This document shows positions 18,701 through 39,011 of a DNA stretch of 50,313 bases, piece by piece. Each line of letters starts with the position of its first letter. The first letter of the stretch is position 1. The stretch spans positions 1 to 50,313 of the forward strand of contig WFTL01000097.1 of the NCBI GenBank assembly GCA_015485495.1, read 5' to 3'. The DNA is from Planctomycetaceae bacterium. GTDB taxonomy: Bacteria; Planctomycetota; Planctomycetia; Planctomycetales; Planctomycetaceae. The position numbers and the translations under genes were made by a program. The notes under the pieces were generated by a model. That model did no database searches, had not been told where the DNA came from, and saw only the letters and a program-made list of their open reading frames with translations.

Positions 18701-18818
18701 GAAACCGACGCCGGCTGACAGAAAACAGTTCGTCGGCCGGCGGAGCGGAATCCGGTTCAGGGACTGTGTGCCGCCGGAGACGACGGTCGGGCGATGGCTG
18801 TCCGGAAATCTGATTCAT
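15792..18818 (-). CDS. actB: Alternative complex III subunit ActB (molybdopterin-like plus four-cluster ferredoxin domains)
   Basis: A 1008-residue periplasmic subunit. The N-terminus carries a Tat-type signal ([11 protein letters not shown], residues 35-45) ending near a Cys (LQGCG) that could be lipidated. The first two thirds are a DMSO-reductase-like domain, which in characterised complexes has lost molybdopterin. The last third has four Fe-S motifs: [37 protein letters not shown], and CSMCVQR with CQQSCP. In known structures this domain passes electrons from the ActC quinol site to the hemes. Here the N-terminal domain also retains Cys85, Cys88, Cys92 and Cys120 (C-x2-C-x3-C-x27-C), the usual cluster motif of active relatives. 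I chose the ATG at 18818, 10 bp after actA; the ATG at 18863 lies inside actA. Confidence 0.93.
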
Positions 18819-18828
18819 GGCGTCTGTT

Positions 18829-21097: not shown

Positions 21098-21123
21098 CGT
21101 GAAAGTTCACTTTCCTGACGGTG

Positions 21124-22692
21124 TTACGAATTGATGCGAAGATGAGCGCTGGTGGATTCCATCTGTCGCGACAGTTCCGGTGCCTCGGTTCGCAGCATTT
21201 TCTGAACCACCAGGTGCATCCAGATCAGACACACCGAGACCAGAACAGCAAAAAACATCCAGCAGGAGGTCCACAGGCCGGTCGCATTCAGCAGGTAACC
21301 GAAGATGACAGGGCACACGAATCCGCCCAGGCCGCCGAGCACGCCGACGATCCCTCCCACAACTCCCACATCGTTCGGAAAGTAATCGGGAATGTGTTTG
21401 TAGACCGCAGCTTTGCCAATCCCCATCACGGTGCCGAGAATCAGACTCAGCACCGTAAAGACCCAGATATTGGCCTGAAAGAAGATCTCTGTGATGCCAC
21501 GAGCCAGCAGTTCCCTGGTGGCCACTTTCTGCCCCGGTTCAACGACAGGTTCCTGCCACGACATCGAACGGGGCAGGATCAGCATGCCGGAGTTCCGTTC
21601 TTCGTCGCTGACCAGTTCTCCCTGTCTGCGTTTGAGAACGTAGGTGTGCTCGTCGCCGCTCGCGGTTCGCACCACGATTTTCGAATCCGTTACGAGGACG
21701 ACTACTCCGGGGGCCCGGGCCATGATTCCGCTTCCCGGCGAGCGGATGTCCATCTGCGGCACGATCAGCAGAATGCAGCAGACCAGCGACGACCCCAGCA
21801 CCCAGTACATCACCGTCCGGGCGCCGAACACATCCGACAGCCAGCCGCCAAACGCACGGATCACACCGGACGGAAGACTGTTGCAGCCGGCCAGCACGCC
21901 TGCCAGAACCACAGTGGTGGAATAGGCATTGACGTAGTAGGGAACGAGCCACTGTGCCAGTGCCACGAAGCCGCCGAACACGAAGAAATAATAGAGCCCG
22001 AACCGCCAGACTCTCAGATGTTTCAGCGGCTCCATACGCTCAGACAGCGTTCTGGTGGCGCTGCCGGGAGGAATCCGCGTGGTCGTAGTCAGCAGAAACA
22101 CGACACCCGTAACAGCCAGCAGGGCCGCATAAAGTGTCGGCAGGTGTCTCCACCCTTCGATATGGGTGCCGTTGTCCGTAAGGATTTTGAGAACCGTTGG
22201 TGCCCCGAATGTGGTCAGCGCAGCGCCCGCATTTCCCGCTCCGAAAATTCCCAGAGCCGTTCCCTGGCGATGCTGCGGAAACCAGACAGACGTGTAGGCG
22301 ATGCCGACGGCGAAACTTGTTCCGCAGAATCCGAATCCCAGACCGGCCAGGAAGAAGTCCCGGTAACTGTCGCAGTACCCCGTGAGAAACGTCGGGACAG
22401 CGCAGGCCAGCAGCAGCACTCCGAAAACGATTCGTCCGCCCCATTTGTCCGTGGCCACGCCCAGCGGCAGACGAAAAACGGCTCCGGTCAGCACGGGGAT
22501 TCCGATCAGCCAGCCCATTTCCTTCGGGCCCCAGTCGTAAACGCCGTTGTTGACGAGGAACGTGATGAGCACCCCGTACATCATCCACACCGCGAAACAC
22601 ACGGTGAAAGCCAGCGTGTTCATGGTCAGAATCCACCAGGCACGCCGCCGTTCTTCCGGGTTCAGGCCTTCATTCATCGTGTGTTCTGTCAT
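21124..22692 (-). CDS. narK: Nitrate/nitrite transporter of the NarK family (first copy)
   Basis: A 522-residue major-facilitator protein. The helix-5 signature GAGNAGAALT is at 151-160 and the second Gly-rich signature GGIVGVLGGLGGF at 446-458. It differs from the second narK by a hydrophilic, beta-strand-like insertion at about residues 314-403, between two transmembrane helices in the C-terminal half, containing VVVLVTDSKIVVRTASGDEH. It follows narI by 18 bp, with GGAAAG seven bases before the ATG. Two unlike NarK proteins next to a respiratory nitrate reductase usually mean one importer and one exchanger; which is which is not resolved here. Confidence 0.9.
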   Translation of the reverse strand: MTEHTMNEGLNPEERRRAWWILTMNTLAFTVCFAVWMMYGVLITFLVNNGVYDWGPKEMGWLIGIPVLTGAVFRLPLGVATDKWGGRIVFGVLLLACAVPTFLTGYCDSYRDFFLAGLGFGFCGTSFAVGIAYTSVWFPQHRQGTALGIFGAGNAGAALTTFGAPTVLKILTDNGTHIEGWRHLPTLYAALLAVTGVVFLLTTTTRIPPGSATRTLSERMEPLKHLRVWRFGLYYFFVFGGFVALAQWLVPYYVNAYSTTVVLAGVLAGCNSLPSGVIRAFGGWLSDVFGARTVMYWVLGSSLVCCILLIVPQMDIRSPGSGIMARAPGVVVLVTDSKIVVRTASGDEHTYVLKRRQGELVSDEERNSGMLILPRSMSWQEPVVEPGQKVATRELLARGITEIFFQANIWVFTVLSLILGTVMGIGKAAVYKHIPDYFPNDVGVVGGIVGVLGGLGGFVCPVIFGYLLNATGLWTSCWMFFAVLVSVCLIWMHLVVQKMLRTEAPELSRQMESTSAHLRINS

Positions 22693-22710
22693 GAGTCGTC
22701 TTTCCGGGTT

Positions 22711-23391
22711 CTAGCGACGCCCGTACCACCGCACGACCTGTGGTTTTCGCCACAGGTACGGATTGGGAATCACCAGCAGATGCACGAGCCTGGTGAACGG
22801 GAAGAAGCCGATGATGACGAATGCCAGAACGATGTGAGCCCGCACCAGAATGGGCATTCCGGTTACATAACTCAGATCCGGGTTCAGCATGAGAACAGAC
22901 CACAGGTAGGGCGACAGATTCGACGCGAACCAGGACGAACCCCACGGGCGAAAAACGGCGATGGCCACTCCGCCGGCAGTCTGCACAAGAAGCATGCCGA
23001 ACAGGATCCAGTCGGTGACGGTGGTGACGCGACGCAGCCTGCTGGTCATCGCGCGACGAACCAGAAGTCCCCCCAGACCGATGAGAGTCAGCAGCCCGCA
23101 GGCCAGAGCGGAAATTTCCAGGACGTACAGACGCAGGGGGTGGCTGTTCCACACGAGAATGCCGCGCGGGATCAGAAACGCGATCAGGTGCCCGGCCGTG
23201 ACGGCCAGAATGCCGTAATGAAAAGGAACGACCGCCCAGAAATGGAGCCGGTTCTCCAGAAACTGGCTGGACAGGCTTGAATAGGAAAACGACTGTGCGC
23301 GATAGCGGTGAATCGTCATGAGCAGGAACGTGAACAGACACACGTACGGCAGTGCGACGAACAGAAACGTGTCGAGTATCGGGGCGTTCAT
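22711..23391 (-). CDS. narI: Respiratory nitrate reductase gamma subunit (diheme cytochrome b)
   Basis: A 226-residue, five-span membrane protein that oxidises quinol at the periplasmic side and passes electrons through two b hemes to NarH. The four heme-ligating histidines sit at His58, His68, His186 and His204, close to His56, His66, His187 and His205 of the E. coli protein. The contexts VPFHYGILAVTAGH and RAHIVLAFVIIGFFPFTRLVH are typical. The ATG overlaps the narJ stop by 4 nt. The length matches the family. Confidence 0.95.
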   Translation of the reverse strand: MNAPILDTFLFVALPYVCLFTFLLMTIHRYRAQSFSYSSLSSQFLENRLHFWAVVPFHYGILAVTAGHLIAFLIPRGILVWNSHPLRLYVLEISALACGLLTLIGLGGLLVRRAMTSRLRRVTTVTDWILFGMLLVQTAGGVAIAVFRPWGSSWFASNLSPYLWSVLMLNPDLSYVTGMPILVRAHIVLAFVIIGFFPFTRLVHLLVIPNPYLWRKPQVVRWYGRR

Positions 23392-24092
23392 GGCTGAGAG
23401 TCCCGTGGTGGTGGCGGAAATGTGTTTTCCAGCTGCACGAATTCTTCGGGGCCGGAACCACAGCTGCCGCAGCCGGGCCGGATACCGGCCACCGGAAACG
23501 CATGCAGAGGATCGATGCCTGCGGAAACGGCATGCTCATCCTGCTGAGACTGTTCAGAATCGTCACTCGGCGACCGGCCGCGGCCCCAGAAGTGAGACAG
23601 CACTTCATCAAGGCAGGCCACCACATGACGGTACGGGGTCGGTTTCTCTTCGATCCCCCGGCGCATCGTCCTGACAGCCGGCTCCACGCATGCCCGGACG
23701 AATCGCTGCGCTTCGCTGTGCGGCATTGCTGCGATGACCGACAGGACGTGCGTAATGTGGTCCGGAAGTTCTGAGGTTTCTTCGATTCCGAATTTGCGCA
23801 TCTGCTCGCGCATCCGGACCAGAAACATGCCACGTGCGTATTCTTCCCCGAACAGGTGCCAGCCCACCTCCGGTGCACAGGCCGGGTTGACGTCGAACGT
23901 GCCGGTGAACGCCTCTTCCGCTTCGCACAGGTCGTGCTGATCGAGGAATGCGCCGAACTTCGAAATGTGCTTTGCAGCTTCCGGCAGTTCACTCTGCAGG
24001 CTGACATACAGCAGTTCGGCTGCTTCGATGGTCTGGTCGTCGGGGTAGCTCAGCAGCACCCTGAGTGGCCGGAGGGTTCGGGAACCGGTCAT
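23388..24092 (-). CDS. narJ: Nitrate reductase assembly chaperone
   Basis: A 234-residue protein of the NarJ/TorD family. NarJ binds the NarG apoprotein in the cytoplasm, holds it until the molybdenum cofactor is inserted, and is not part of the final enzyme. The N-terminal half has the helical pattern LLSYPDDQTIEAAELLYVSL and GWHLFGEEYARGMFLVRMRE. The C-terminal 50 residues are Ser/Asp-rich with CGSCG and vary among homologues. The start is the ATG at 24092, which shares one base with the narH stop (TGATG); the upstream ATG at 24224 lies within narH. Confidence 0.9.
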   Translation of the reverse strand: MTGSRTLRPLRVLLSYPDDQTIEAAELLYVSLQSELPEAAKHISKFGAFLDQHDLCEAEEAFTGTFDVNPACAPEVGWHLFGEEYARGMFLVRMREQMRKFGIEETSELPDHITHVLSVIAAMPHSEAQRFVRACVEPAVRTMRRGIEEKPTPYRHVVACLDEVLSHFWGRGRSPSDDSEQSQQDEHAVSAGIDPLHAFPVAGIRPGCGSCGSGPEEFVQLENTFPPPPRDSQP

Positions 24093-25585
24093 CACAGTCC
24101 CCTCCTGGGCCCGCCAACGAACCCGAATCCGGCCTCTTCGCGATGTTCGTGCGGTTCCTTCATCATCTCGATGGCCTGTTCGCGGTGCATGGGAGGAATG
24201 ACGAAACGGTCTTCGAAGGTGCACAGCGACGTCAGCCTGTAGATGGCATCGGCTTCTTCGCGTGAACAGTCGGCTTCCCGAAGCATGCGGTCGGCGGTTT
24301 CGCGATCGACATCGCCCACAGTTTCCGCTCGGCGATGCCAGCGGACCGCCTTTTGTTTGGCCAGCGCGTAGCGGACGACGCCTTCATGTCCGGCTCCGAA
24401 CAGGCTGGCCAGAAATTTCATCGGGACACGCGACTCGTCGATGTCGTGAAACAGATTGTCGCTGCTGTGAGTGATCGTGTCTTCGGAGCGGCTCGCCTGG
24501 ACCGGAGACATCGGCGGCACGTAGAACAGCATGGGGAGTGTGCGGTACTCGATGTGCGGCGGCAGTGCGATCCTCCACTCTTTAACGAAGCGGTACACGG
24601 GCGAATTCTGCGCCGATTCAATCACTGCCTCGGACACGCCGTTTTCCAGTGCTTCGGAAATGACTTCGGGATCGTGCGGATCCAGAATCAGCGATCGGTG
24701 CCCCTCGACCAGCTCGTCGTCGGGAAGTTTTGCGACGGCTTCCAGTCGTTCGGCGTCGTAAAGCAGCACTCCCAGATAGCGAATCCTTCCGACACAGGAA
24801 TGGAAGCAGGCGGGAGCCTGGCCGGTTTCGAGTCGCGGGAAGCACAGAATGCACTTCTCGCTTTTTCCGGTGAACCAGTTGAAATAGGTCTTCTTGTAGG
24901 GGCAGGCTGCCACGCACGAACGCCAGGCACGGCATTTCTGCTGGTCGATCAGCACGATGCCGTCTTCGCCCCGTTTGTAAAGGGCCCCCGACGGACACGA
25001 CGCCACGCAGCACGGATTCAGACAGTGATTGCAGATCCGCGGCAGATAGAAGAACACCAGTCGTTCCACGGAACTGAGCTGCAGTCGCTGCTGCTCTGTG
25101 AGTCCGTCGAGGTTGGGATCGTTTTCGGCGTAGATGGGCGAACCGCCGAGATCGTCGTCCCAGTTGGGGCCCGACTGGACATCGATCTTTTCGCCGTCGA
25201 TCATCGAGATCGGTTCGGCAGTGGGCTGGTCGGAACCTTCCGGTGCATTGAACAGGTTCTGATAATCGTACGTCCACGGTTCGTAGTAATCGTCCATGCC
25301 GGGCATGTGCGGATTGTGGAAGATGTTGGGCACGATCTTCGTTTTGCTGGTCGACCGAATATCCAGCCCGCCACTGCCGTTCAGCTTCCATCCGCCCTGA
25401 TATTTGTCCTGGTCCTCCCATTTCGTCGGGTAGCCTGTCCCCGGTTTGGTTTCGACATTGTTCCACCACATGTATTCAGCGCCCCTGCGATCGGTCCACA
25501 CGTTCTTGCAGGCGATGCTGCACGTGTGACAGCCGATGCATTTGTCGAGGTGAAACACCATCGAAACCTGTGATCGAACCTGCAT
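24092..25585 (-). CDS. narH: Respiratory nitrate reductase beta subunit (Fe-S)
   Basis: A 497-residue electron-transfer subunit that links NarI hemes to NarG. Four cluster motifs are visible: CIGCHTCSIAC near residue 17, CNHCLNPCCVASCP, CRAWRSCVAACP, whose Trp replaces a Cys as expected for the [3Fe-4S] cluster, and CILCFPRLETG followed by CFHSC. The start MQVRSQVSMVFHLDKCIGC aligns with known NarH from its first residue, so the ATG at 25585 is secure although its ribosome-binding site is weak. Upstream is a 189-bp stretch (25586-25774) without a gene. Its stop overlaps narJ. Confidence 0.96.
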   Translation of the reverse strand: MQVRSQVSMVFHLDKCIGCHTCSIACKNVWTDRRGAEYMWWNNVETKPGTGYPTKWEDQDKYQGGWKLNGSGGLDIRSTSKTKIVPNIFHNPHMPGMDDYYEPWTYDYQNLFNAPEGSDQPTAEPISMIDGEKIDVQSGPNWDDDLGGSPIYAENDPNLDGLTEQQRLQLSSVERLVFFYLPRICNHCLNPCCVASCPSGALYKRGEDGIVLIDQQKCRAWRSCVAACPYKKTYFNWFTGKSEKCILCFPRLETGQAPACFHSCVGRIRYLGVLLYDAERLEAVAKLPDDELVEGHRSLILDPHDPEVISEALENGVSEAVIESAQNSPVYRFVKEWRIALPPHIEYRTLPMLFYVPPMSPVQASRSEDTITHSSDNLFHDIDESRVPMKFLASLFGAGHEGVVRYALAKQKAVRWHRRAETVGDVDRETADRMLREADCSREEADAIYRLTSLCTFEDRFVIPPMHREQAIEMMKEPHEHREEAGFGFVGGPRRGL

Positions 25586-25774
25586 TCGTCCGTGTCCCTG
25601 CTGCCGCCACCGGCCTGTTTCTGCCCGGGGAACGGTCGGGGAGAAGGCCGTGACGCTGTTTCTGTGAGTGATGCGCTGTCCGTCAGTAATGTGTCCTGTA
25701 TGGTCCTGGGTGGCACATCCCGCTTCCGGCCATCGCCCGTCAGGGCTGCAGAAAGGGGATGCAGGCCGATCCGC

Positions 25775-28700
25775 TCAGTACACGGGTTTCCCTGGCAGTT
25801 TTCTTACCAGCAGATGCGTATCCCGGTTGCAGCCGACCGGCCCCCAGTAGTTGAAGTGATAGGTGAACTGGCCGTACCCGCCGGCCATGAAGTTGGGTTT
25901 CAGACGCGTGCGTGTCAGGCTGTTGTGCCCGCCGGCGCGGCGTTTCTTCCGCAGTGGTGACAGGGGAATGCCGTGGGTTCGTTCGGGAGAGTGGTACTGC
26001 ATGCAGATTCCCCTCGGAATGCGGGCGCTCACGACGGCGCACGTCACAACGACACCGTGATCGTTGAAGACTTCGATCCAGTCGTTGTCGACGATGCCCA
26101 GCTGTTCGGCATCGCGGTCGTTGATCCACAGGGGATACACACCGCGCGACAGGGTGGTCATGCGCTGGTTATCACCGTAGGTCGAGTGGATGTGCCATTT
26201 GCCGTGCGGTGTCAGATAGTTCAGCATCAGTGTCGGACCGGTCTGTTCGGTCGATTCGCTGAACTGCAGGTCCGCATACTGCGTTGGCAGCGGTTTCGGT
26301 TTGTAGGTCGGCAGGTGTTCGCCGAAATCGATGTAGATCGGATGGTCGAGGTAGAATGACTGGCGACCCGTCAGGGTCCGCCAGGGGACCAGGTTCTCGA
26401 CATTGTAGGTGAATGGTGCGTAGGAGCGTCCGTCTTCGATCAGACCGGACCACATCGGACTGTTGATGAACCGACGCGGCTGGCTCTGAATGTCCCTGTA
26501 GGACGTTCGGAAACCGCGGTTCTTCTCCGCCAGATGCACCAGCGGCAGACCGGTTTTTTCCTCCATCCCTCTGTACGAGCGATACGCGAATTCTCCGTTG
26601 GTGACCGTCGCGAAATGCAGAATGACGTTGCAGACATCCTCATCGCGGGCGAGCGACGGGTAGGTGCGGTCATCCCATGTTTCCGTGCGGTGTGTTCTGA
26701 TGTATTCATCGTACTCATCGGCGATCTGATAAGCCGTGCCGTGTGCACCCAGGCCGTTGGCGCGCACCATGGGTCCGTAGGAAATGAACTGTCTGTAGAC
26801 GTTCCGGTAGTCTCGTCTGACGACTTTGAACGCCGGCATGGTCTTTCCGGGAATGGCGTCGACTTCGCCCGTAATCCACTGTTTCATGTCGGGCTGCGCG
26901 ATTTCGGCCGGCGTGTCATGTGCCAGTGGTGTTGCAACGAGATCTTCGACCGGTTCGGGAAAATGAGGTGCGGCCAGTTCCGAAAACTTTCTGGCCACCG
27001 ACCTGAAGATCGCCCAGTCACTCTTCGATTCCCAGCACGGCGGCACGGCCGGCGAGAGGGGATGAATGAAACTGTGCATGTCCGTCGAGTTGAGATCCGC
27101 CTTTTCGTACCAGGTGGCGGCCGGCAGGATGATGTCGGAATACAGCGCGGAAGTGTCCATCCGGAAGTTGAGATCCACGACCAGATCCATCTTTCCCTGG
27201 GGAGCATGTTCGTGCCACGCGACCTCGCGAACGGAGTCTCTGGCCAGTTCCCTGCCGACTGCGTTGTCGTGGGTTCCCAGGTAGTGCCGGAGGAAGTATT
27301 CGTGGCCTTTGGCACTGGCCATCAGGGCGTTGCCCCGCCAGATGAACCACACCCGCGGCCAGTTCTCTTCGGCATCCGGATCTTCGACGGAAAACTGCAT
27401 CTCCCTGTTCTTAAGCCGCTCAGCCACCCAGGCTGCGATGTCATCGGGAGTATCGGCACCTGCTTCACGGGCCTGGCGCACCACATCGAGCGGGTTTTCG
27501 GGGAACTGCGGATAGAACGGCAGCCAGCCCTGTCGCACGGCGCGGACCTGCATGTCCATCGTATGTCCCTGCGCCGTGGTCGATTCAGACGTCTTCTGCG
27601 GGACCGTGTGATAGTCGGTGAAGTCCTTTTCGTAGCGCCACTGATCGGTATGAACATAGTGCCAGCTCGGCGTGTTCTGAACGCGTGACGGCGGAAACCA
27701 GTCTTTCGCCAGCGCGATGGAAGACCAGGATTCCATCGGAGCAAGTTTTTCCTGACCGACATAGTGTGCCAGTCCGCCGCCGTTGACGCCCACACAGCCG
27801 CAGAACATGAGCGCGTGGATTCCGGCTCGATACATCAGGTTGGCGTGGTACCAGTGATTGATCCCCGCCCCGATCAGGATCGTGCATTTGCCTCCCGTGT
27901 GCTCGGCGGTTGAGGCCCATTCACGGGCAAAACGAATCACAACGTCGCGGCCGATACCCGTGTATTTCTCGCTCCACGCCGGAGTGAACGGTGCTTCTTC
28001 GTCGTCGTAGTCGGCGGGATACTCACCGTCCAGCCCGCGGTTCACCCCGTACTGCGCCATCAGCAGGTCGTAGACGGTGGTGACCGGAACGTCCTGGCCG
28101 TCTTTGGCTGTGATCGTGCGAACGGGAACGCCGCGTGTGGTTGTGCGTCCTGCTCCGAAGTCGTCCAGTTCGACCTCGAGAACGCCGTCGTTGGCGCTGA
28201 GAAACGTGAGCGTCGGATGGATCGGACTGCCGTCCCGGCCGTCATTCAGCCGGAGATTCCATTTGCCCTTTTCCGTCGCCCAGCGGAATCCGGAACTGCC
28301 CATCGGCATTTTGGGGCCGTCGGATTCCTCATCCCACATCAGGAACTTCCATTCTCCGTGTTCTTCTTCGCTGTACTGTTCCAGACGCCCGGCACGCAGC
28401 AGCCGGCCCGGACGCAGCGTTCCGTCGTCGCCTTCGACGATTTCGACCAGGTACGGTGAATCCGTGTATTTTTTCGCATAATCGATGAAGTACGGCGTCT
28501 GTTTCCGGTGATGGAACTCGGTCAGCAGCACATGGTTGACCGCCATCCACCAGGCGCCGTCCTGTCCGGAATTCAGAGCGACCCATTCGTCGGCGTATTT
28601 TGCCACCATGCTGAAATCGGGTGAAAAAACCCACAGCTTGGTTCCGTTGTGGCGCCCTTCGGCCAGGAAGTGACAGTCGGGGGTACGTGTCATGCCGATG

Positions 28701-29434
28701 TTAGCGCCCATCGAAACCAGCATCTTGGCGTGATACCAGTCGGCGCTTTCGGCCACGTCGGTCTGTTCGCCCCAGGTTTCCGGAGATGCCGGAGGCAGGT
28801 CGCAGTACCAGTCGTAGAATGAAAGCGACAGCCCGCCGATGAGCTGCATGAGCCGCGCACCGGCCGCGTAACTGATCATCGACATGGCCGGAATCGGTGA
28901 GAAGCCGGCAATTCGGTCCGGACCATGTTTCCTGATGGTGTGCACCATCGAGGCGGCGATGATTTCGAGAGCGGTGTCCCAGGTGGTGCGTCGCAGACCG
29001 CCCTTGCCCCGGGCACGCTGCCAGCGCCGTCGGGCTTCGGGATTCTCGACCAGGCTTTGCCACGCATCGACGGGATCGGTGTGATCGGCGCGAGCCTGCT
29101 TCCACAGATCCAGCAGTGCTCCGCGAATGTACGGATACTTCACACGCAGCGGACTGTAGAGATACCAGCTGTATGAGATGCCTCGCTGGCAGCCGCGCGG
29201 TTCATAGGGCGGAATCCCCGCTTCCAGAGCCGGATAGTCCAGCCCCTGCATCTCCCAGGTCACAATGCCGTCTTTGACGTGAATGTTCCATGTGCATCCG
29301 CCCGTGCAGTTCACGCCATGGGTGCTGCGCACGACTTTGTCGTGCTGCCAGCGGTTGCGGTAGAATTCTTCCCACGCCCGTCCTTTGGGATTCACTTCAT
29401 CCCGAATCCAGGCGATCGCATCCAGTCCGTTCAT
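25775..29434 (-). CDS. narG: Respiratory nitrate reductase alpha subunit (Mo-bis-MGD)
   Basis: A 1219-residue catalytic subunit that reduces nitrate to nitrite. The His39, Cys43, Cys47, Cys82 set (in [11 protein letters not shown] and EPRGCQRG) binds the [4Fe-4S] FS0 cluster, and Asp212 in [12 protein letters not shown] corresponds to the Mo-ligating Asp222 of E. coli NarG. The ten-residue offset is constant, so the N-terminus is only slightly shorter. No Tat signal is present, which places the active site in the cytoplasm, unlike nitrite oxidoreductases and archaeal-type pNar. Similarity to canonical NarG continues to the end ([15 protein letters not shown]). The ATG overlaps the stop of the cytochrome gene (ATGA). 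Confidence 0.97.
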
Positions 29435-30408
29435 GAAGTTTTTTCCCGGTGTGAATCGGGTCCGCGGGAGACGCTGTCCTCAACAAGGGGACGGCGCACA
29501 CCGCGGAACCGCTCTTTCCAGACGGCGTCGAACACAAAAATTACACCGGTGGCGATCGCCAGTCCGGTCAGCAAAAAAGTGATCCGAGCGGTGGACGCGT
29601 CGGATTCGCTGTGTCGGGCGGCTTCTTCGAAATAGGCAGCCAGAGCGTGAATTTCTTCCGCTTCAAGAGGGCGGTTCCTGAAAATCGGCTGCATGGTTTC
29701 GGTGGCCGGGGCCATCAGCCAGGCACTCAGGGCCTGGCGGCCTTTCAGGCGTTCGTAAACGCGTGTCAGGTCCGGCCCCAGTCGCCCGCCGCCCAGAGCG
29801 GGCAGGTTGTATATCGAATGACACGCACTGCAGGCCGTACCGCCGTTCTTCAGCCTGCGGATGCCGACGAAGATGGCTTCTCCGTTTTTTCGGTCGGCAT
29901 CCGTGAACGGCCTGTTCGAAATCTTCACGCCCTGGAACTGCGACTTCTCAAGCTTCGATTCGGCTTCGATGAGCCTGATAAGCTGTTCCGCTCGATACCG
30001 AGTCATTCCGGGCGCGATGGGCATGACAACCCCCCGCGACTCCTCGACCAGCTTTGCCGCGTACGGGTCACCGCTGTCAACAACTGACTTCGGATTCTGC
30101 AGGAAGTTGATCAGCCATTCGGTGTCGCGACGTTTCGTGACGTCTTTGAGATCGGGGCCGGTCAGGCGGCCGCCTCCAATTGTGTGACAGTTGAGGCAGT
30201 TTTGGCGGTAATAATCGGGAGTATCCTGAGCACGAACAGATGATGTCCCGGCCACCAGAACCAGGAGCATGGCTGCCCTGCAGAAGTGAAAGCTTCTGTT
30301 TCTCTCAACAGGAACAGCAACGGAGACATGGCCGCCTTCTGCCCTTCTGTGGATGTTCAGCAGGCAGCACCTGGCCAGGGAAGGTTGTGTCCTGTCCGCT
30401 TCCAGCAC
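29431..30408 (-). CDS. Diheme cytochrome c, NarC-like
   Basis: First gene of the respiratory block, overlapping narG by 4 nt. It has two heme-c sites, CLNCH (about residues 71-75) and CSACH (about 193-197), each with downstream Met candidates ([16 protein letters not shown]), then a C-terminal transmembrane helix (about 270-292) and a short basic tail. A signal-like stretch ([15 protein letters not shown]) precedes the first heme domain. Both heme domains should be periplasmic. The position and heme count match NarC of the Thermus nar operon, a diheme cytochrome reported as needed there for nitrate reductase attachment and electron transfer. The start is uncertain: GTG 30408 has the best ribosome-binding site (AAGGAG, 6 bp away), ATG 30270 gives a short signal peptide, and ATG 30507 is also open. 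Confidence 0.82.
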
Positions 30409-31081
30409 CACACTCTCCTTCGGTCCGAACGGTTCCCGTTGCGAACGGTCCGAGAGACACCATCGGTCCTCACGTTCAGCGGGCCCATGTTGCAACAACC
30501 GTGCCATCGGTTTCTTTCACAGAAAAGCGATGCCCTCTGCGCGTGAACGCTTCGTGTGTTGTGCGAGAACGATCAGTGTGCGCCGGTCGACCGACAGGCA
30601 CTGCGGATGCTGATCGATGCGGGCCGCTCTGCACGGAACCGGCGTTGCTGCAGCAGTTCGCTGCCGGTCAGACAGCCGGAATCACGGTTTTTGCGAGATC
30701 AGGGATGCGGCGTTTCGCAAACGAGACATGGCTGCGGCACTTCTTCCGGTGGCGCGGAATGTCGCGCCGTGTGTGCAGCGTCGCACGCAGTCGAATGTCT
30801 GATCACCACTCAGATCGCGCGCAGGGAAGGTTGTGCCACGTCTTCCGAACAGTCGGATTCGCGAAGACTCGTCCGTTGGCTGAAACGTTTACAGCACGTG
30901 ATTCCGATGCCTGGAAGCAGATCATTGCGGGTTAGTCCCCGTTCCTGACAGGGAATTCAGCGCGTTCACTGCGAAACATCACCGAATGATGGCTGGTCTG
31001 CTGTCATCCGCTGTTTTCTTCGTGATCAGATCGATTGAGCGGTTACCATGACGGAACTGGAAACCTGTGCGGAGAGTCCCG
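30409..31081. other. Divergent regulatory region between the nar block and the kinase gene
   Basis: About 670 bp with no convincing gene; open frames here lack homology, ribosome-binding sites or normal composition. It should hold the promoter of the nar-act block and that of the kinase gene. Noted sequences are a 10-bp palindrome TGTTGCAACA at 30488-30497, about 80 bp before the chosen cytochrome start, and CAGGGAAGGTTGTG found twice (30376-30389, just inside the cytochrome gene, and 30822-30835). I looked for an FNR/DNR-type TTGAT-N4-ATCAA box and saw none. Confidence 0.5.
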
Positions 31082-34000
31082 ATGATCGATACGCCTTCCT
31101 GGGAAGGCAGGATGCCTGGATACGGCGCCGACCCAGAATTCGGCGGTGCCGGAGATTCGGAAGGCCGCGCCCGATCCGGTCCTGCCGGGAATCGTGACAG
31201 CTCATCGGGACTGCAGCGCTGGCGTCAGTGTCTGGTCCTGCTGTCAGCCCGACAGCTCGCCTTCACATGGCCTCAGACCGTCTGCATTTCCGCTCTGGTG
31301 AATGAGGCGATGCGTGAGCACGGCCTGGACCTGCCGGTCAGCCGCGCGGACGCTCAGATGCAGCTTTCTCAGGTGTGCCAGTATGTGCGTGAGTGTGCCG
31401 ATCCGTCCGGCGAATCGAGTGGCCTGAACGGTTCCCGAAACCTTCCGTCTCCGGCTCGGCAGATCGAGGCGGAAGTCGAGAAGGAAGCCCATCGTTCGGA
31501 TGATTCCGGGGCCGAATCCCGGACGTTCGGTCGCGCGGCCGTTCTGAGCGAAGCGTTGTCCCGTCTGCCGCAGCAGGACCGCCGTCTGCTGCGACTGCGT
31601 GCCTTCGATCACCTGCCGTTTCGCCGGATCGCTCAGGCAGTCGGCGGGGAGACCGAAGAAATCTGTCGGCGCTGGTGCGAAGCGGTTATGCGGCTGGCCT
31701 CCTGGCTTCCGGGAGATTCAGGAGAACAGCATGCGGCAGAAGGGGAAGATCTGTCGGAGGAGGAGATTCGGTTTCTTCTGGAGTCGGACCGGATGCTGGA
31801 AGAGGACCGGCTGTTCGTGGCCGAGTCCCGGCAGGAGTTCCTGAAGTCGGACACTCTGATTCTGCCGCCGTTCGCGAATCGTCTGGACAGAGCGATGCGG
31901 TGCGTTCGCTGGCTGAGGGCGGAAGCGACCCTGAACACTCTTCCGGCAGGAGGCCCGGAACGGGTTCTGGAGCGATCTGTGCGCTGGCTGGGACGTTATG
32001 AAATCCTTTGCGAACTGGGGTCCGGCGGACACGCATCGGTGTTCCTGTCCCGGGATTCGGAACTGGGGCGATTTGTGGCCGTCAAGACGCCTCGTCTCGG
32101 CGCATCGGCTCGACGAGACATTCGGCGCCGTTTCGAAATCGAAGCGCGGGCCATTGCAGCTCTGAATCATCCCCACATCGTGGAAGTGCTGGATTTCGGC
32201 CAGCACAACAGGCAGATGTATCTGGTGGAAGCAGCCTGTCTGGGACCGACTCTGAAGGAATGGAACACGGCCCGCCGGACACCGGTGGACGATCGGACCG
32301 CCGCCTGCATTGCGCGCCAGCTCGCCGATGCCGTGTCTCATGCCCACTCCCGCAACATTCTGCACCGGGACATCAAACCGGCCAACGTTCTGCTGGATCC
32401 GGTTTCGAGCGAGGTTTCTGCCCGGTACCAGGAAGAACATCTGGTCCCGTCCCTTCCGTCCTATGATTCGGTTTTTTTCCTGCCGCGTCTGTCGGACTTT
32501 GGGATTGCCCGAATCTTCGACAGCGAACAGGGCGAACCGCTGACGGCCACAGATGCCGTCATCGGCACGATTCCCTACATCGCGCCCGAACATGCTCTCG
32601 GCCACCACGATCAGATCGGCTGGGCGACGGATGTCTACGGACTGGGAATGGTCCTGTATGAACTGCTGACACGAACGCTCCCGTTCCGGGGGATTTCTCC
32701 GATGCGGGTTCTGCATGCGGTCACTCAGGAAGAACCGCGTGCTCCCAGCCGGATCCGTTCCGACGTCAACCGGGATCTGGAAGCGATCTGTCTGAAGTGT
32801 CTGGAAAAATCGCCGGCGGCCCGCTACGAGTCGGCTGCGGCTCTCCGGGATGATCTGGACCGGTTTCTCAGTGGCCATCCGGTGCTGGCCAGACCGCCGT
32901 CCCGATTCGGCCGGCTGCGCCGGTGGTGCCGGCGTCATCCGGGCCGCATGCTGGCTGCCGGCAGTGCTGTCGTGATGGCTGCGCTGCTGGTGCTGTCGGT
33001 CTTCTGGCATGTGACGGCTCTGAATCGGGAAGTCGAAAGAACACGCGTTCAGATGGTCGAGGCGCACCATCAGCGGCTGCGGGCCGATCAGGAAGCGGAC
33101 AACGCGAAACGTCAGACGGAACTGGCCGAACAGCGAAACCGGCGGCTTCTCAGACATCTGTTCAGCCTGGACGCGCAGGCCGCCTGGCTGTCGCTGCGCA
33201 AAGGGAACTGGACCCGGTGCGATGAGCTGCTTCGCAAACATGCGGACAACCCGGATGTGACGTCCGGATTCATCTATCGATTCCTGTGGCAGATGGCCCA
33301 TCAGCACGCGGCCAGCAGCCGTGTGTCGGACGGCCGGGTGTTCTGCGTTTCGTTTTCACCGGACGGAAAGATTCTGGCCGGCGGCGATGAAGACGGAACT
33401 GTGACAGTCTGGAATGCGGGTGATCTGTCGCTGAAAACACGTCTGACCGGTCACACGGCCTGCGTCAATGCGCTCACATTTTCCGATGACGGATCGCGGA
33501 TCTTTTCCGTGTCCTGCGACGGAACACTGCGTTCCTGGAACACTCGGACGTGGAAGCCGGCAGCCGTTCTGTTTACCGGACAGTCCGAACTGTATTCCGT
33601 CGCTTCATCGCCCGATGTTGCGTATCTTGCCGCCGGAGACCAGAACGGAAATCTCTTTCTGATCGATCCGCAGCACGGGCATGTGATTTCCCGGGTCCGC
33701 GTGTCCGACTGGCGCATCGAATCGCTGTTCTTTTCCCACGACGGGCGGCATGTCGTCGGAGCCTCCCATGACGAAGCCGTCGTGTATCAGGTTCCGGATC
33801 TGCAGGAAATCCGGCGGACAGGAATCCGCAGGAACCTGGCCGGTGGAGTCCATGTCGTCCATCGTCTTCCGACTACAGATCAGTTCCTCTGGGCCGGATC
33901 GGCTCCCCTGATCGGCCGCGAACCGCTTCTGACCACGTCCGGTCCACAGACTCTGTATCAGCCGCGGCAGGCGATTCATTCTCTGAGTTCCGACCGGTCG

Positions 34001-35119
34001 GGACGGCTGATTGCATTCGCCGGCGGCGGCCGCATCGCCCAGGTGTTCGATTCGGACGTTCAAAGAACCATTCTTCGGCTGTACGGACATACCGATCGCA
34101 TCACCGGCATCAGCCTGCATCCGGACGCGGTCAGTCTGGCAACCAGCAGTTTCGACGGAACTGTGAAACTCTGGAAGGTGCCGCATCGAGGGGAATGGCG
34201 GGATCTTTCGGAAATCCGGGGTGCCCGGCAGCTGGCGTTTGCCGACGCCGGTTCCGTGCTGCTGATCACCGGTTCCGACGGAATCCGGGCCTTCGATGTG
34301 ACGGACTGGACCTGCCGCTATACCCTTCCGGGGGACTGCTGCGCGGTATCGTGCGATGAAACGCGCGGTGTTGTGGCCGCGGTGTCCGACGGGCGGATGA
34401 CACTCCACCGGGCCTCCGACGGAACCACACTGACATCAGACAGCCATGAATGGAACATCCGTCCCGGCGATGAATTTCTCGTAGGACCATCCGGATCGTT
34501 CATCATCGGCCTGGATTCCCGGGGATGGCTGCAGCAGGTCGATCTGGTTCATCGGGACCGACCGGCCGTCCGGCAGAACGTTCATGGCCGGTGTCGTGCT
34601 GTCTGTCGGAAACCCCGTTCGGATTCTCTGATCGTTCTCGGCAGTCAGCCGGATGATCTTCTGGATCTGGCACCGCCGGATCCGTCGCATCCGGGGAGGG
34701 AAATGCGTCTGATGGCCAGGAACATTCGTCACGTCCGGTCCCACGACCGGACAGGACGGATCGCCGCGGCAGCCGCGGACAGCTTCATCTACGTCTGGGA
34801 TGCGCACCGCAGCAACATGCTGGTGTCCACCACATCAGACGCCGACAGTGCTGCCACGTGCGTTGCGTTTTCCGCGGATGGTGATGTTCTGGCCGGCGGG
34901 GATGAAGATGGCTGGGTCCGGCTGTGGGAAACGGAGACCGGACACAACTGTCTGTCGATTCCCGCTCACAGAACGGCCGTCACGGCCATGACGTTTTCTC
35001 CGAACGGTCGGCTGCTGGTGACGGCGGCTGCCGGCACAGCGGATGTGCCGGGCTGCGTGCGGGTGTGGAAGGCGGCTTCTGCAGCAGCGACGGTTCAGCC
35101 CGCGGACGATGTGCCATGA
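31082..35119 (+). CDS. ECF-sigma-like / Ser-Thr kinase / WD40 fusion protein
   Basis: A 1345-residue protein with four parts. Residues about 45-210 resemble a planctomycete-type ECF sigma factor: an ISALVNEA stretch (about 69-76) like the TALVNEA of that group, and a region-4-like helix-turn-helix beginning LSEALSRLPQQDRRLLRLR (155-173). Residues 303-595 are a Hanks-type kinase with GSGGHASVF, Lys335, HRDIKPAN (Asp430), DFG at 472-474 and APE at 501-503; about 23 extra residues lie between the catalytic loop and DFG. One transmembrane helix (623-645) and a short coiled coil follow, then WD40-type repeats from about 745 to the end (SFSPDGKILAGGDEDGTVTV is the first clear one). All catalytic residues are present. 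The ATG at 31082 has GGAGAG five bases upstream; a GTG at 31067 is also in frame. Confidence 0.88.
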   Translation: MIDTPSWEGRMPGYGADPEFGGAGDSEGRARSGPAGNRDSSSGLQRWRQCLVLLSARQLAFTWPQTVCISALVNEAMREHGLDLPVSRADAQMQLSQVCQYVRECADPSGESSGLNGSRNLPSPARQIEAEVEKEAHRSDDSGAESRTFGRAAVLSEALSRLPQQDRRLLRLRAFDHLPFRRIAQAVGGETEEICRRWCEAVMRLASWLPGDSGEQHAAEGEDLSEEEIRFLLESDRMLEEDRLFVAESRQEFLKSDTLILPPFANRLDRAMRCVRWLRAEATLNTLPAGGPERVLERSVRWLGRYEILCELGSGGHASVFLSRDSELGRFVAVKTPRLGASARRDIRRRFEIEARAIAALNHPHIVEVLDFGQHNRQMYLVEAACLGPTLKEWNTARRTPVDDRTAACIARQLADAVSHAHSRNILHRDIKPANVLLDPVSSEVSARYQEEHLVPSLPSYDSVFFLPRLSDFGIARIFDSEQGEPLTATDAVIGTIPYIAPEHALGHHDQIGWATDVYGLGMVLYELLTRTLPFRGISPMRVLHAVTQEEPRAPSRIRSDVNRDLEAICLKCLEKSPAARYESAAALRDDLDRFLSGHPVLARPPSRFGRLRRWCRRHPGRMLAAGSAVVMAALLVLSVFWHVTALNREVERTRVQMVEAHHQRLRADQEADNAKRQTELAEQRNRRLLRHLFSLDAQAAWLSLRKGNWTRCDELLRKHADNPDVTSGFIYRFLWQMAHQHAASSRVSDGRVFCVSFSPDGKILAGGDEDGTVTVWNAGDLSLKTRLTGHTACVNALTFSDDGSRIFSVSCDGTLRSWNTRTWKPAAVLFTGQSELYSVASSPDVAYLAAGDQNGNLFLIDPQHGHVISRVRVSDWRIESLFFSHDGRHVVGASHDEAVVYQVPDLQEIRRTGIRRNLAGGVHVVHRLPTTDQFLWAGSAPLIGREPLLTTSGPQTLYQPRQAIHSLSSDRSGRLIAFAGGGRIAQVFDSDVQRTILRLYGHTDRITGISLHPDAVSLATSSFDGTVKLWKVPHRGEWRDLSEIRGARQLAFADAGSVLLITGSDGIRAFDVTDWTCRYTLPGDCCAVSCDETRGVVAAVSDGRMTLHRASDGTTLTSDSHEWNIRPGDEFLVGPSGSFIIGLDSRGWLQQVDLVHRDRPAVRQNVHGRCRAVCRKPRSDSLIVLGSQPDDLLDLAPPDPSHPGREMRLMARNIRHVRSHDRTGRIAAAAADSFIYVWDAHRSNMLVSTTSDADSAATCVAFSADGDVLAGGDEDGWVRLWETETGHNCLSIPAHRTAVTAMTFSPNGRLLVTAAAGTADVPGCVRVWKAASAAATVQPADDVP

Positions 35120-35135: not shown

Positions 35136-35756
35136 TCAGTCCATGAAGATGCGGTGGTAGTCGCGGAAGATGACATCCAGCAGATCGCGGGCCGGTTCCG
35201 GAGCATGGTAGCGCACGAAACCTTCACCGGTTTCGGGATTTTCGTCCACCAGACGAATGTTGTCTTCTTCGCTGTACATCCAGGCTTCTTCCTGGAGGTA
35301 TCCGAAGATCTCGTGCAGTGCCTCTTCATCCGCCGGAATGAAGACTTCACCGTCCAGGAAAAGCTGGTAGGCGTATTCTTCCAGTTTCGGCCAGGACATG
35401 CCTTCTGATGTGCCGCGGTAATACGGCTGCAGCACGGACACGGCATCCGGCTTCACGTTCGGATTCCGCAGCATGTCGATCGCGTTCCACGGGCAGATGG
35501 TGAGCTGATAGAACTCGCTGCTGTCATTGGGCGATCGGTAACACATCTGGCAGCCGATGCAGCGGCTGGTGTCGATCTGATGGTAGCTCTGGGAGGGAAT
35601 CGGGCTGACCACTTCGTAGATGCAGTCCACCGGACAGACCGATGCGCAGGAATTGCACGATGTGCAGCTGTCCTTGTTGATGACGTTCAGATACCGCGTT
35701 TCTTTCTTGCGATCCGACCTGCGCGTCCGGAAATATTCGGTCACCGAAATCGTCAT
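35136..35756 (-). CDS. 4Fe-4S ferredoxin-type protein with C-terminal extension
   Basis: A protein of 206 residues. The first cluster motif CTSCNSCASVCP is canonical. The second begins CIGCQMC but its last Cys-Pro (TICPWNAID) comes after a 16-residue insertion, where 3 residues are usual. A C-terminal extension of about 90 residues without cysteines follows, containing DGEVFIPADEEALHEIFGYL. No signal peptide is present, so it is probably a cytoplasmic electron carrier or subunit; its partner is unknown. The start is the ATG at 35756, preceded by GGGGGAG; the longer open frame up to 36086 looks non-coding. It converges on the kinase gene with only 16 bp between stops. Confidence 0.85.
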   Translation of the reverse strand: MTISVTEYFRTRRSDRKKETRYLNVINKDSCTSCNSCASVCPVDCIYEVVSPIPSQSYHQIDTSRCIGCQMCYRSPNDSSEFYQLTICPWNAIDMLRNPNVKPDAVSVLQPYYRGTSEGMSWPKLEEYAYQLFLDGEVFIPADEEALHEIFGYLQEEAWMYSEEDNIRLVDENPETGEGFVRYHAPEPARDLLDVIFRDYHRIFMD

Positions 35757-36113
35757 CGACTCCCCCGTCTGCTTCCAGAAAAACGGTCCGGCTTCATCGG
35801 TCCGGCACCGCACGGCATCTGATTGTTCCCGCCCGATCGGACGTCCTGACCAGACCGGACCGCCAGACACCTGTTTCCAGGGGCAGCCTGGCTGTTCATT
35901 CCTGCACACCTGGCTGTTCCCCGGCAGGTGACAGACCACATGATCGCCGGCAGGCAGCGGCCCATGAGTACCATCGTCGATGCCGCAGGATGAGCTATGA
36001 AGAATAGACGGAAAATCGGGCAGCAGCCACATCGGTGCGGCGGCCGGGAGCCCGTTTTTCCCATTCCCGACACCTGTTCCCGGCAATTCCTGCCCCTGAG
36101 AAGGCGGCGGCTG
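35757..36113. other. 357-bp region upstream of the ferredoxin-type gene
   Basis: No gene is apparent. CCTGGCTGTTC occurs twice, at 35887-35897 and 35909-35919, a spacing of 22 bp or two helical turns; the second copy lies inside an inverted repeat CACCTG ... CAGGTG. These sit about 130-160 bp upstream of the ferredoxin start and could be an operator. No clear terminator for the phosphatase gene was seen. Confidence 0.4.
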
Positions 36114-36863
36114 TCACGCATCGTCTTCCGATGTGAGCACCGTATTTTCCGGCAGCAGCACGCAGCTGAGCTTTCCCTGCCGTCCTCCGGTGGTGTCCGT
36201 GGCGATGATCCGGTCGCCAAACAGAACTTCGGGGATCGGGACATGTCCCTGAACGACCGTCACCGGGCAGCCCTGCGGAACCGGCCCCCGAATGAAGGAT
36301 TTGCTGAACAGCCACGGCGGCTGAGACAGCGTGTAATCCGGCTGCCTGAGAATCTGTACCTGCATGTCGAATGTCATCGCCGGATCCAGCCCCGCATGGA
36401 CGAACAGGTATCTGGGATGTTCCACCCGCCACGGCAGACGGCTCAGCCAGTGCGCATGGTTTTCCGGCAGCGCTTCCCGAAGCTGGTCGAAGTTCCCCAG
36501 GTCGGCTCCATAAGACGCGAACGTCGTTTCCACGGAATAGGCATGCAGCCAGGCACTCTTCCAGTCCAGGTAATCCGGAGTATCGATCAGATCCAGAGAA
36601 GCCGCCATGGCCAGTTCATGGTTTCCGCAGACCCATGCCACGCGATCATGCTGACTGATCAGATCACAGAACAGGTCGAGGGTTCCTTTGGGGTCCGGAC
36701 CGCGATCGACCAGATCCCCGATGAACACGATCCACCGGTGCTGCATGTCGGGGACACGTTCGAGCTGATGGATGATCTGCCGCAGTTTTCGCGTCTGCCC
36801 GTGCACATCTCCGATGACTGCGACGGGGCCGTCGATCCGGGTCGGCAAAGAGCTGGCAGGCAT
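36114..36863 (-). CDS. PPP-family metallophosphatase (Ser/Thr phosphatase-like)
   Basis: A 249-residue calcineurin-like phosphoesterase with the metal-binding motifs in order: GDVHG, GDLVDRGP, GNHE, then His residues in FVHAGLD and QGHVPIP. These are the PPP phosphatase signatures, so it may remove phosphate from proteins or cleave diadenosine tetraphosphate-like molecules. I chose the ATG at 36863, which lies 16 bp after the stop of the UPF0173 hydrolase; an upstream ATG at 36887 would overlap it. It ends a three-gene run with pgi. A protein kinase gene lies 1 kb away, but no direct link is shown. Confidence 0.88.
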   Translation of the reverse strand: MPASSLPTRIDGPVAVIGDVHGQTRKLRQIIHQLERVPDMQHRWIVFIGDLVDRGPDPKGTLDLFCDLISQHDRVAWVCGNHELAMAASLDLIDTPDYLDWKSAWLHAYSVETTFASYGADLGNFDQLREALPENHAHWLSRLPWRVEHPRYLFVHAGLDPAMTFDMQVQILRQPDYTLSQPPWLFSKSFIRGPVPQGCPVTVVQGHVPIPEVLFGDRIIATDTTGGRQGKLSCVLLPENTVLTSEDDA

Positions 36864-36879
36864 GGAATGTCGTCTTCCG

Positions 36880-37575
36880 TTACGCAACGCCGTCGAAGGA
36901 GAACGACTGGCCGGGTTTCAGCACCACCGGCAGAGCCGACGTGTCTTTTTCGATGGCCGCCGCCCAGGCATCCGTGTCCTGTTCGATCACCGGCCAGGTG
37001 TTGTAGTGTGCCGGAATCACGGTACCGGGGCGAATGAACTGAGTGGCCCGCACGGAATCTTCCGGTCCCATCGTGAAATTGTCGCCGATCGGCAGAATGG
37101 CCACGTCGATTTCTTCATCGCCGATCAGCCGCATATCGGAAAACAGAGCTGTGTCGCCGGCATCGTAAATCGTGACGTCTTCGGTTTTCAGAATCAGCCC
37201 CGCCGGACTGCCTCCGCAGCTTCCGTCCGGCAGCATGGATCCGTGATGGGCCACCGTCAGTTTCAGCACACCGAAATCGAACGCATGCCGGCCGCCGATG
37301 TGCATCGGGTGGGCGTTTTCCACACCGCGTTTCTGAAACCACGACACGATTTCGAAATTGGAAACCACCAGCGCTCCGGTGCGTGATGCAATCGCCTCGA
37401 CGTCGGCCATGTGGTCTTCATGACCGTGCGTGACCAGAATCGCGTCCGCTTCGATGTCGTCGGCGGATGCGGCCGCCTGAGGATTGCCTGTCAGAAACGG
37501 GTCGATCAGCACCGACTGACCGCCTGTCAGAATCTGAAACGACGCATGTCCCAGATACCGGATTTCTGTTGTCAT
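36880..37575 (-). CDS. UPF0173-type metal-dependent hydrolase (metallo-beta-lactamase fold)
   Basis: A 231-residue protein with the metallo-beta-lactamase fold metal site THGHEDH plus later His residues in VAHHG, the Asp in IYDAGDTALF and the His in IPAHYNTWP. It begins YLGHASFQI and LIDPFLTGNP, as in the UPF0173/YtkL group. The enzyme is predicted cytoplasmic; its substrate is not known. Its start follows the pgi stop by 2 bp, so the two are almost certainly co-translated from one message. Confidence 0.9.
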   Translation of the reverse strand: MTTEIRYLGHASFQILTGGQSVLIDPFLTGNPQAAASADDIEADAILVTHGHEDHMADVEAIASRTGALVVSNFEIVSWFQKRGVENAHPMHIGGRHAFDFGVLKLTVAHHGSMLPDGSCGGSPAGLILKTEDVTIYDAGDTALFSDMRLIGDEEIDVAILPIGDNFTMGPEDSVRATQFIRPGTVIPAHYNTWPVIEQDTDAWAAAIEKDTSALPVVLKPGQSFSFDGVA

Positions 37576-37577
37576 CG

Positions 37578-39011
37578 TCAGGTCTCCGAATCGCCTGTGT
37601 CGGCACCGCCGCGCAGCAGAATGTCGATCATGTTCTTCTTGTAGGCTTCCACGCCAGGCTGACCATACGGGTTGATTCCGATCAGTTCCCCTTCCACGAC
37701 CGTTGACAGCATCAGAAGCTGGAAAAGCTGCCCCAGAGAATGCGGCGTGATTCCCGGCAGTTTCAGATCGACCGTGGGACGCGCATCGGCCGCGTAGGCC
37801 TGACTGGTCCCGGCGATGGCTGCTTCCAGCACGGATGCCGGACTGTGACGGGCGAAGCGGTTCAGGTCGTCCGCGTCGTCTTCACGAAGCGGAATCTTCT
37901 GAGTCGGATGTCGGGGCGGACCGGGCAGCAGGTTGACAATCAGTTTGTCGCGACGACCTTCCTGATGCTGCTGGCCGCGGCTGTGCAGGTCGCGCGTATT
38001 GACCCCTGTGATCGGTGTGGCGCCGCGTTCCTGTTTGCCCAGGCTTTCCGCCAGAAGCTGATCGTACCACAGTCCCACAGCTTCCAGATGGCTGCCCCAT
38101 GTGGACAGAACGCGGATGGTCAGCCCGCGCTGCCGTTCCAGCAGATGACCGATGGCCGCATGACGGAGCACCGCGTTGTGTTCGAACGGAGCCGATCGGA
38201 AATGTTCGGTCATCTCGGCCGCGCCCTGCAGCAGACGGCGGATGTTGATTCCGCTGACTGCCGCCGGCAGCAGTCCCACTGCCGTGAGAACAGAAAAACG
38301 TCCGCCGATTCCTTCGGGAATCGAAAACACGTCGCGAAAGCCGGCCTGTTCCGCCAGTGTTCTGAGTCGACCGGTGGTTCCCGTGACGGGAACAATCAGA
38401 TCCTGAACGTCGCTGCTGAAATGCCGTTCCACGAAGGCCCTCAGATTCCGAAACGCGATGGCCGGTTCCAGCGTGCCTCCCGATTTGCTGATGACGATCA
38501 GAGCCGTCCTGCCGGCCGGGCCGTCTGAACCACAGCGGCGGACCCGGTTTTCCAGAAGGTCCAGCAGAGCCTGCTGACGATCGGAATCCACATTCCAGCC
38601 GGCAAAGTACAGACGCGGAATGCCTCCGCGTTCTTCCCGTGTTCGTTCATTGTGAAACGGGTCGGCCAGAGCTTCGAACAGGGCCCGCATTCCCATGTAG
38701 GAACCGCCGATACCGATCACCACCACGGTGTCGACCGTTTGCTGCAGACGGGTCGCGCAGCGTTCGATCTGAGCGATCAGGCTGTCGGCGCCGTTTTCCT
38801 TCATATCCTGAAGCAGACGGTCAGGCCAGTCGATGAAGGCGGCATCCAGAGGCTGTTTCTGCGGCGATGCGGTGCAGCCTTCCGCCGCCCGACGCGCGTC
38901 CTGCAGCACCGCTTCCCGAGCCTCCGGCAGCCCCGCTTCCAGGGCCGCTCTGTCCGGTTCCGGCAGCGTCTTCAAAGCCGCGTGCAGGTCGCAGGTGATC
39001 AGTTCCGACAT
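37578..39011 (-). CDS. pgi: Glucose-6-phosphate isomerase
   Basis: A 477-residue cytoplasmic enzyme that interconverts glucose 6-phosphate and fructose 6-phosphate. Recognisable are VVVIGIGGSYMGMRALFEAL, VISKSGGTLEP in the sugar-phosphate-binding SIS fold, and the C-terminal NPYGQPGVEAYK containing the catalytic Lys. AGAAGG lies just before the ATG. It heads a three-gene unit with the UPF0173 hydrolase and the PPP phosphatase. It is separated from rpsD upstream by a terminator. Confidence 0.95.
   Translation of the reverse strand: MSELITCDLHAALKTLPEPDRAALEAGLPEAREAVLQDARRAAEGCTASPQKQPLDAAFIDWPDRLLQDMKENGADSLIAQIERCATRLQQTVDTVVVIGIGGSYMGMRALFEALADPFHNERTREERGGIPRLYFAGWNVDSDRQQALLDLLENRVRRCGSDGPAGRTALIVISKSGGTLEPAIAFRNLRAFVERHFSSDVQDLIVPVTGTTGRLRTLAEQAGFRDVFSIPEGIGGRFSVLTAVGLLPAAVSGINIRRLLQGAAEMTEHFRSAPFEHNAVLRHAAIGHLLERQRGLTIRVLSTWGSHLEAVGLWYDQLLAESLGKQERGATPITGVNTRDLHSRGQQHQEGRRDKLIVNLLPGPPRHPTQKIPLREDDADDLNRFARHSPASVLEAAIAGTSQAYAADARPTVDLKLPGITPHSLGQLFQLLMLSTVVEGELIGINPYGQPGVEAYKKNMIDILLRGGADTGDSET

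Follow-up and report, generated by a model that had tools for sequence, protein, structure and literature searches.

Results

A sigma-like module, a protein kinase and WD40 repeats in one chain

We examined a gene in a 50,313-nucleotide stretch of DNA from a Planctomycetaceae bacterium (contig WFTL01000097.1, assembly GCA_015485495.1; the whole stretch is referred to below as the window) in which a sigma-like module, a Ser/Thr protein kinase, a membrane helix and WD40 repeats are joined in a single chain (Table 1). A preliminary description of this DNA had proposed that arrangement, with an intact kinase, and both points were largely borne out by the open coding frame, the Pfam matches and the sequence motifs. 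The ATG used here, which is also the start given in that description, is preceded by GGAGAG at 31071-31076; residue numbers are counted from it unless marked as GTG numbering. Divided into 27 blocks of 150 bases, the frame had codon scores above zero throughout and was the best of the three forward frames except in the last block (34967), where another frame scored higher.

The kinase domain matched Pkinase (PF00069) with an E value of 3.3e-41 (141.8 bits against a cut-off of 31.7; residues 311-594, GTG numbering), and the motifs VAVK, HRDIKPAN, SDFG and GTIPYIAPE are all in place. By its domain and catalytic motifs the window protein is thus, at the level of sequence, a Hanks-type Ser/Thr kinase. 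It contains one hydrophobic helix at about residues 628-650 (GTG numbering) and WD40 repeats (Pfam, E value 2.1e-42). The charge flanking the helix, +6 on the N-terminal and 0 on the C-terminal side, implies that the kinase would lie inside and the WD40 repeats outside.

Table 1. The fusion gene and its parts, in window coordinates
Feature	Position	Strand	Remarks
Fusion gene	31082..35119	+	1345 amino acids from ATG; GTG at 31067 is an alternative start
Eroded sigma region 2-like segment	31211..31399	+	Residues 44-106; profile score, conserved columns, model helices
C68-I69-S70-A71, at the site of the DAED/DxSD core-binding motif	31283..31294	+	Alignment and counts
Sigma region 4-like helix-turn-helix	31508..31720	+	Residues 143-213; profiles, model, fit to solved structures
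Linker, about 90 residues	31721..31990	+	Mostly helical in the model
Ser/Thr protein kinase domain	31997..32848	+	Pfam match and catalytic motifs
Single transmembrane helix	32948..33016	+	Hydropathy and flanking charge
WD40 repeats	33332..35074	+	Pfam; putatively extracytoplasmic

A sound region 4 and a probably eroded region 2

The N-terminus was compared with a profile of 31 planctomycete extracytoplasmic function (ECF) sigma factors from which the window protein was excluded (profile 1). Similarity to the window protein was how most of these had been identified, so we assembled a further 13 sigma factors encoded near related kinases (the second set). Region 4 scored 58 bits against profile 1, where the best of 1000 shuffles reached 10 bits, and 39.3 bits against the second set; in neither case did any of 1000 shuffles score as high. 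It was also matched by PF08281 (E value 3.8e-5, 23.7 bits) and by TIGR02937 (E value 1.6e-6, 27.8 bits), which matched region 4 only; both matches fell below their cut-offs (25.7 and 42.9 bits). The predicted local distance difference test score (pLDDT) of region 4 in AlphaFold2 models, whose input alignments contained sigma relatives that steer such models, was 93-97 (blocks 151-210). Solved sigma4 domains superposed on it at 0.9-2.7 Å, and the sigma4 structure 3hug_G did so with a Z of 11.5 and at 1.2 Å over 71 residues.

The sigma2 half has decayed more than the sigma4-like half. Region 2 scored 5.5 bits against profile 1 (1/1000 shuffles as high, 2/1000 for a shorter cut) and 0.4 bits against the second set (15/1000, and 28/1000 for the shorter cut), and neither the Pfam nor the NCBIfam library matched it. 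By hhalign, region 2 alone gave 5.7% and the whole N-terminus 97.9%, while the window protein scored 26.4 bits against Sig-70_plancto1 (TIGR02984), below the curated cut-off of 183.75. AlphaFold2 with a sigma alignment gave the region 2 helices a pLDDT of about 70-85, with a predicted template-modelling score of 0.47. The best Foldseek match to the two-domain model was a sigma factor at an E value of 0.017; full-length matches had root-mean-square deviations of 7.6-27.5 Å, only region 4 being matched well. Predicted alone, region 2 formed three helices. Foldseek matches to this model were unconvincing, with a single sigma chain ranked 23rd at an E value of 6, and the top hit in VIA-align was a sigma2 whose Z of 5.4 was equalled by unrelated chains. 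Because the segment is collinear in alignment with region 2 of true ECF sigma factors, it is probably homologous to that region but eroded. Of the ECF-like module in the preliminary description, then, the region 4-like helix-turn-helix stands, by profile and by fold, whereas the ISALVNEA region proposed as region 2 is weak in score and, taken alone, reaches a Z of at most 5.4 in structure comparison.

The conserved columns tell the same two halves apart. Up to and including region 2 the window protein keeps 8 of 23, the fewest of 32 proteins, and the start Met is among the 8; beyond region 2 it keeps 17 of 27, and four relatives (L045, L113, L019 and L094) keep a smaller share. Measured on the second set, it keeps 6/21 columns in sigma2 versus 13/23 in sigma4. 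At the core-binding motif, the one that contacts the beta' clamp, the window protein has CISALVN where its relatives have DxSDLVQ, so that both acidic residues are gone and the Ser is third. The last D of the region 2.2 motif, present in 31/31 relatives, is Ala71; the Gln that follows the motif (30/31) is Asn74; and the Trp of region 2.3/2.4 (31/31) falls in a gap. A wider count took in 72 sigma open reading frames (ORFs) with the motif aligned: an acid occupies the fourth motif position in 71 of them (exception L060) and in 13/13 of the second set, and the Trp is retained in 65/72 and 12/13, respectively. Because of these losses, the sigma2 half would probably no longer bind the beta' clamp or melt a -10 element. 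The preliminary description had held that loss of all core- and DNA-contact residues would refute its proposal; the tested region 2 positions are indeed gone, but region 4 retains its fold and the majority of its conserved positions.

Probable origin from an operon of a sigma gene and a kinase gene

We searched 397 genomes of the class with the kinase, scoring up to four candidates per genome. An ECF sigma gene lay directly upstream on the same strand in 11 of the 13 best-listed matches (exceptions L158 and L165), and likewise at two further loci picked because the match ran into region 4. A Pfam scan of four of those 11 sigma-preceded kinases found WD40 repeats in each. Viewed from the sigma side, 44 of 83 distinct sigma ORFs (from the fetched loci, with own-genome sigmas by family included) were followed, on the same strand, by a kinase ORF; the remaining 39 had no kinase within the short locus fetched. 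These counts agree with the preliminary description, which had stated that planctomycete ECF sigma genes often stand beside Ser/Thr kinase genes. Exactly 4 bases are shared by the two ORFs in 10 of the 44 pairs. From the sigma stop to the kinase domain there are 67-125 codons in 13 pairs, and from region 4 to the kinase there are about 94 residues in the window protein. In a kinase tree, the five rows nearest to the window protein by path (L037, L006, L051, L032 and L038) all come from sigma-paired loci, and at two of these loci, L006 and L037, the N-terminus has sigma matches as well.

Because an upstream ECF sigma gene accompanies so many of the best-listed kinase matches, the view that the gene is a lineage-restricted fusion of a common planctomycete operon pair, an ECF sigma gene with a Ser/Thr kinase-WD40 gene directly after it, is well supported. 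The simplest history would be that two genes of an operon lost the stop that separated them, sigma2 decaying with or after the fusion.

A rare variant

None of the 44 fetched pairs is fused, and the survey for the same fusion that the preliminary description had called for also found none among the kinase matches listed. Among those matches, five rows besides the window protein align from region 4 through the kinase, each with at least one stop; a fusion with an unalignable linker, or one outside these matches, would escape this survey. Searches with the N-terminus covered 40 relatives, 397 class genomes and 170 family genomes, each total including the own genome. Within the candidates scored, up to 5 per class genome and up to 13 per family genome, no ortholog was found in the class or family genomes, the two same-genus genomes included; the best non-self match had an E value of 1.6e-7, and the matches examined were ECF sigma ORFs. 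A species-level contig collection, from which records near the own genome were possibly excluded, gave no ortholog of residues 1-344 (GTG numbering), and the same scan returned four loci of Pseudomonadota or Acidobacteriota that match only at the kinase start. Both same-genus genomes share synteny with the window over 35136-39011, a block that narrowly excludes the fusion gene. No published description of a sigma-kinase-WD40 fusion was found in the literature searched, which covers print only in part. The gene represents a rare, fused form of an arrangement known from planctomycetes.

Comparison with known systems

Planctomycete operons of an ECF sigma factor and a Ser/Thr kinase are represented by ECF59, ECF61, ECF62 and ECF217 of the Casas-Pastor classification (PMC8999054). 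They consist of the same two modules as the window gene, in the same order, and its best sigma and kinase matches come from such pairs. The window gene differs in being one chain, and its sigma2 is without the acid, the Gln and the Trp that the unfused sigma partners nearly all keep. As far as descriptions allow comparison, a sigma domain and WD40 repeats are also united in one chain in the ECF57 type, whose WD40 repeats are C-terminal (PMC8999054), and in the ECF-WD40 proteins of Gemmataceae (PMC8567305, PMC11032199), but the window protein has a kinase and a membrane helix between them, and its sigma2 is decayed. The ECF57 type is further marked by two Cys that link its domains. Planctomycete Ser/Thr kinases with WD40 arrays, many of them membrane-spanning, resemble it in having C-terminal WD40 repeats after the kinase; the portion of the source available mentions no N-terminal sigma-like domain for them (PMC11032199).

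A second comparison concerns the core-binding motif. In Vibrio parahaemolyticus, PknT phosphorylates the second Thr of the STTA motif of EcfP and so restores the charge for core binding (PMC8999054); QTTA and QATE motifs and the pair EcfK-PknS have been described as well (PMC13147305). EcfP-PknT and EcfK-PknS (Xanthomonas citri) belong to ECF43 and, like the window protein, combine a Ser/Thr at the third position of the sigma2.2 motif with a Hanks-type kinase. The EcfP motif is acid-free, as is CISA, and PknS is transmembrane, as the window kinase is predicted to be. In those systems, however, sigma factor and kinase are separate proteins, and in the window protein the rest of sigma2 is eroded too: it has the acid-free motif with a third Ser/Thr (C68, I69, S70, A71) but not the otherwise intact sigma2 of the ECF43 type. 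By analogy with EcfP, Ser70 is a candidate phospho-switch in cis.

Neighbouring genes and other sigma and kinase loci

The fusion gene is divergent to a cytochrome c-narGH cluster. This respiratory nitrate reductase cluster (window 19505-30507) encodes NarG (25775-29434; TIGR01580, 1503.6 bits), NarH (24092-25585), two NarK-like transporters that both score below curated cut-offs, and a cytochrome c. Between narH and the narK-like genes, where narJ or narI might be expected, lies a 445-amino-acid ORF (22670-24007) with no Pfam or NCBIfam match at 1e-5. Genes resembling those of Alternative Complex III (12960-19482; ActD, NrfD, a molybdopterin/iron-sulphur protein and cytochromes) adjoin the cluster. 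At an E value of 1e-100, narG was found in 16 of 170 family genomes (own included). Its identity reaches 88% in other genera while the two same-genus genomes gave no match, which suggests transfer. A conserved link between the fusion gene and nitrate respiration was rejected: the DNA upstream of the cytochrome gene was examined in 11 of the 15 other family genomes with narG, over roughly 0.7 to 12.5 kb in each, and none of the 11 showed a sigma or kinase ORF there. A local link is possible.

Two kinase ORFs at other loci, L068 (1063-4605, 1180 amino acids) and L079 (952-4569, 1206 amino acids), each lie beside a divergent sigma ORF and have an N-terminal HxxxCxxC-like pattern, which we take to resemble zinc anti-sigma domains; L068, the one scanned, gave no zinc anti-sigma Pfam match. 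On contig C14 of the own genome, L106 (1363-3249) is an ECF sigma ORF whose regions 2 and 4 exceed the Pfam cut-offs and whose C-terminal extension of about 420 residues has no Pfam match at 0.01.

Discussion

What is directly supported is that the window protein carries, in one chain, both a sigma4-like fold and a kinase domain that looks intact. On balance we lean towards reading it as a fused operon pair in which sigma2 is a relic, the sigma4-like helix-turn-helix has been kept for docking and the whole is a membrane receptor kinase. The outer WD40 part would receive a signal and the inner kinase would then be switched on; the tethered sigma4-like domain would dock the kinase on sigma4 targets, which might be the RNA polymerase flap, DNA or a sigma regulator, and the docked kinase would phosphorylate targets there. 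Because residues needed for driving RNA polymerase have been lost, the sequence favours a role of the sigma part as a docking handle over one as a working sigma factor. The preliminary description had offered two outcomes. A one-protein path from an extracytoplasmic signal to promoter recognition is left unsupported by Ala71, Asn74, the missing Trp and Glu200, and a domain relic used for protein contacts fits better.

Several observations weigh against the docking interpretation. The recognition-helix Arg found in 29/31 relatives is Glu200 in the window protein, which speaks against ordinary DNA binding. As no ortholog was found, the whole N-terminus may be a passenger. No well-supported set in the kinase tree contains the window protein, and the sigma-paired rows of that tree were mostly fetched by sigma similarity. 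The proposal that the linker is an old kinase N-terminus was rejected: its motif RLDRAMRCVRWL fits RLxRAxxCxxxL no better than shuffles do (93/1000 as high), a non-significant homology to kinase N-termini. Finally, two other sigma ORFs are weak: L170 (2773-3456), upstream of a kinase, keeps 7/28 and 10/25 conserved columns, and L060 (1489-2022, reverse strand) is without the acidic motif residues. Weakening of such sigma factors may therefore not be unique to the window protein.

The best surviving alternative, which we nevertheless consider unlikely, is a functionless relic: an intergenic stop was lost, sigma function decayed and the kinase went on unchanged with a passenger N-terminus. The decay of sigma2 would fit, as would the lack of a match in the two same-genus genomes and the changes beyond region 2 to Gly150, Cys195 and Glu200, each at a position common to at least 12 of the 13 second-set relatives. 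A pure passenger, however, should decay equally in both halves, and here most conserved columns beyond region 2 are retained, region 4 is modelled at high pLDDT and the frame is open throughout, with coding composition.

Distinctly less probable is a phospho-gated sigma factor, in which the fused kinase would phosphorylate Ser70 and restore the charge for sigma2-core binding, as PknT does for EcfP in trans. The motif is acid-free with a Ser where EcfP has its phospho-Thr, and the kinase motifs are in place; but a Ser there is ordinary in the clade rather than a special adaptation, being the commonest third residue in related sigmas (41/72 sigma ORFs), and the position after it holds an acid in 71 of the 72. 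The Gln and Trp are gone too, and a membrane-tethered sigma factor might need release as well. We give little credence to the full chain of events along these lines, from an outer WD40 signal through phosphorylation of Ser70 of CISA in cis by the fused kinase to RNA polymerase binding at the membrane. Similarly improbable is a sigma mimic that would sequester a regulator in the way that PhyR sequesters NepR through its sigma-like part (PMC8999054), with the kinase controlling the exposure of the mimic: a sigma fold without core-binding residues would suit a mimic, but the PhyR model matches region 4 only at an E value of 0.16, which is chance level. That an assembly or sequencing error joined two genes is hardly credible, for although the genome was assembled in 180 contigs and the fusion was found in no other genome searched, the joint is over 18 kb away from each end of the window, the coding frame runs continuously across it, the linker length resembles the spacing of natural pairs, and such an error would not cause the decay of sigma2.

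Many planctomycete kinases have their genes next to those of ECF sigma factors, and the occurrence of a natural fusion argues that kinase and sigma factor act on or beside each other. It also offers a single construct for studying the two domains jointly. If Ser70 were indeed switched in cis, no separate sigma, anti-sigma or kinase protein would be needed; if the sigma4-like domain is a docking module, a sigma factor would have been turned into a tether.

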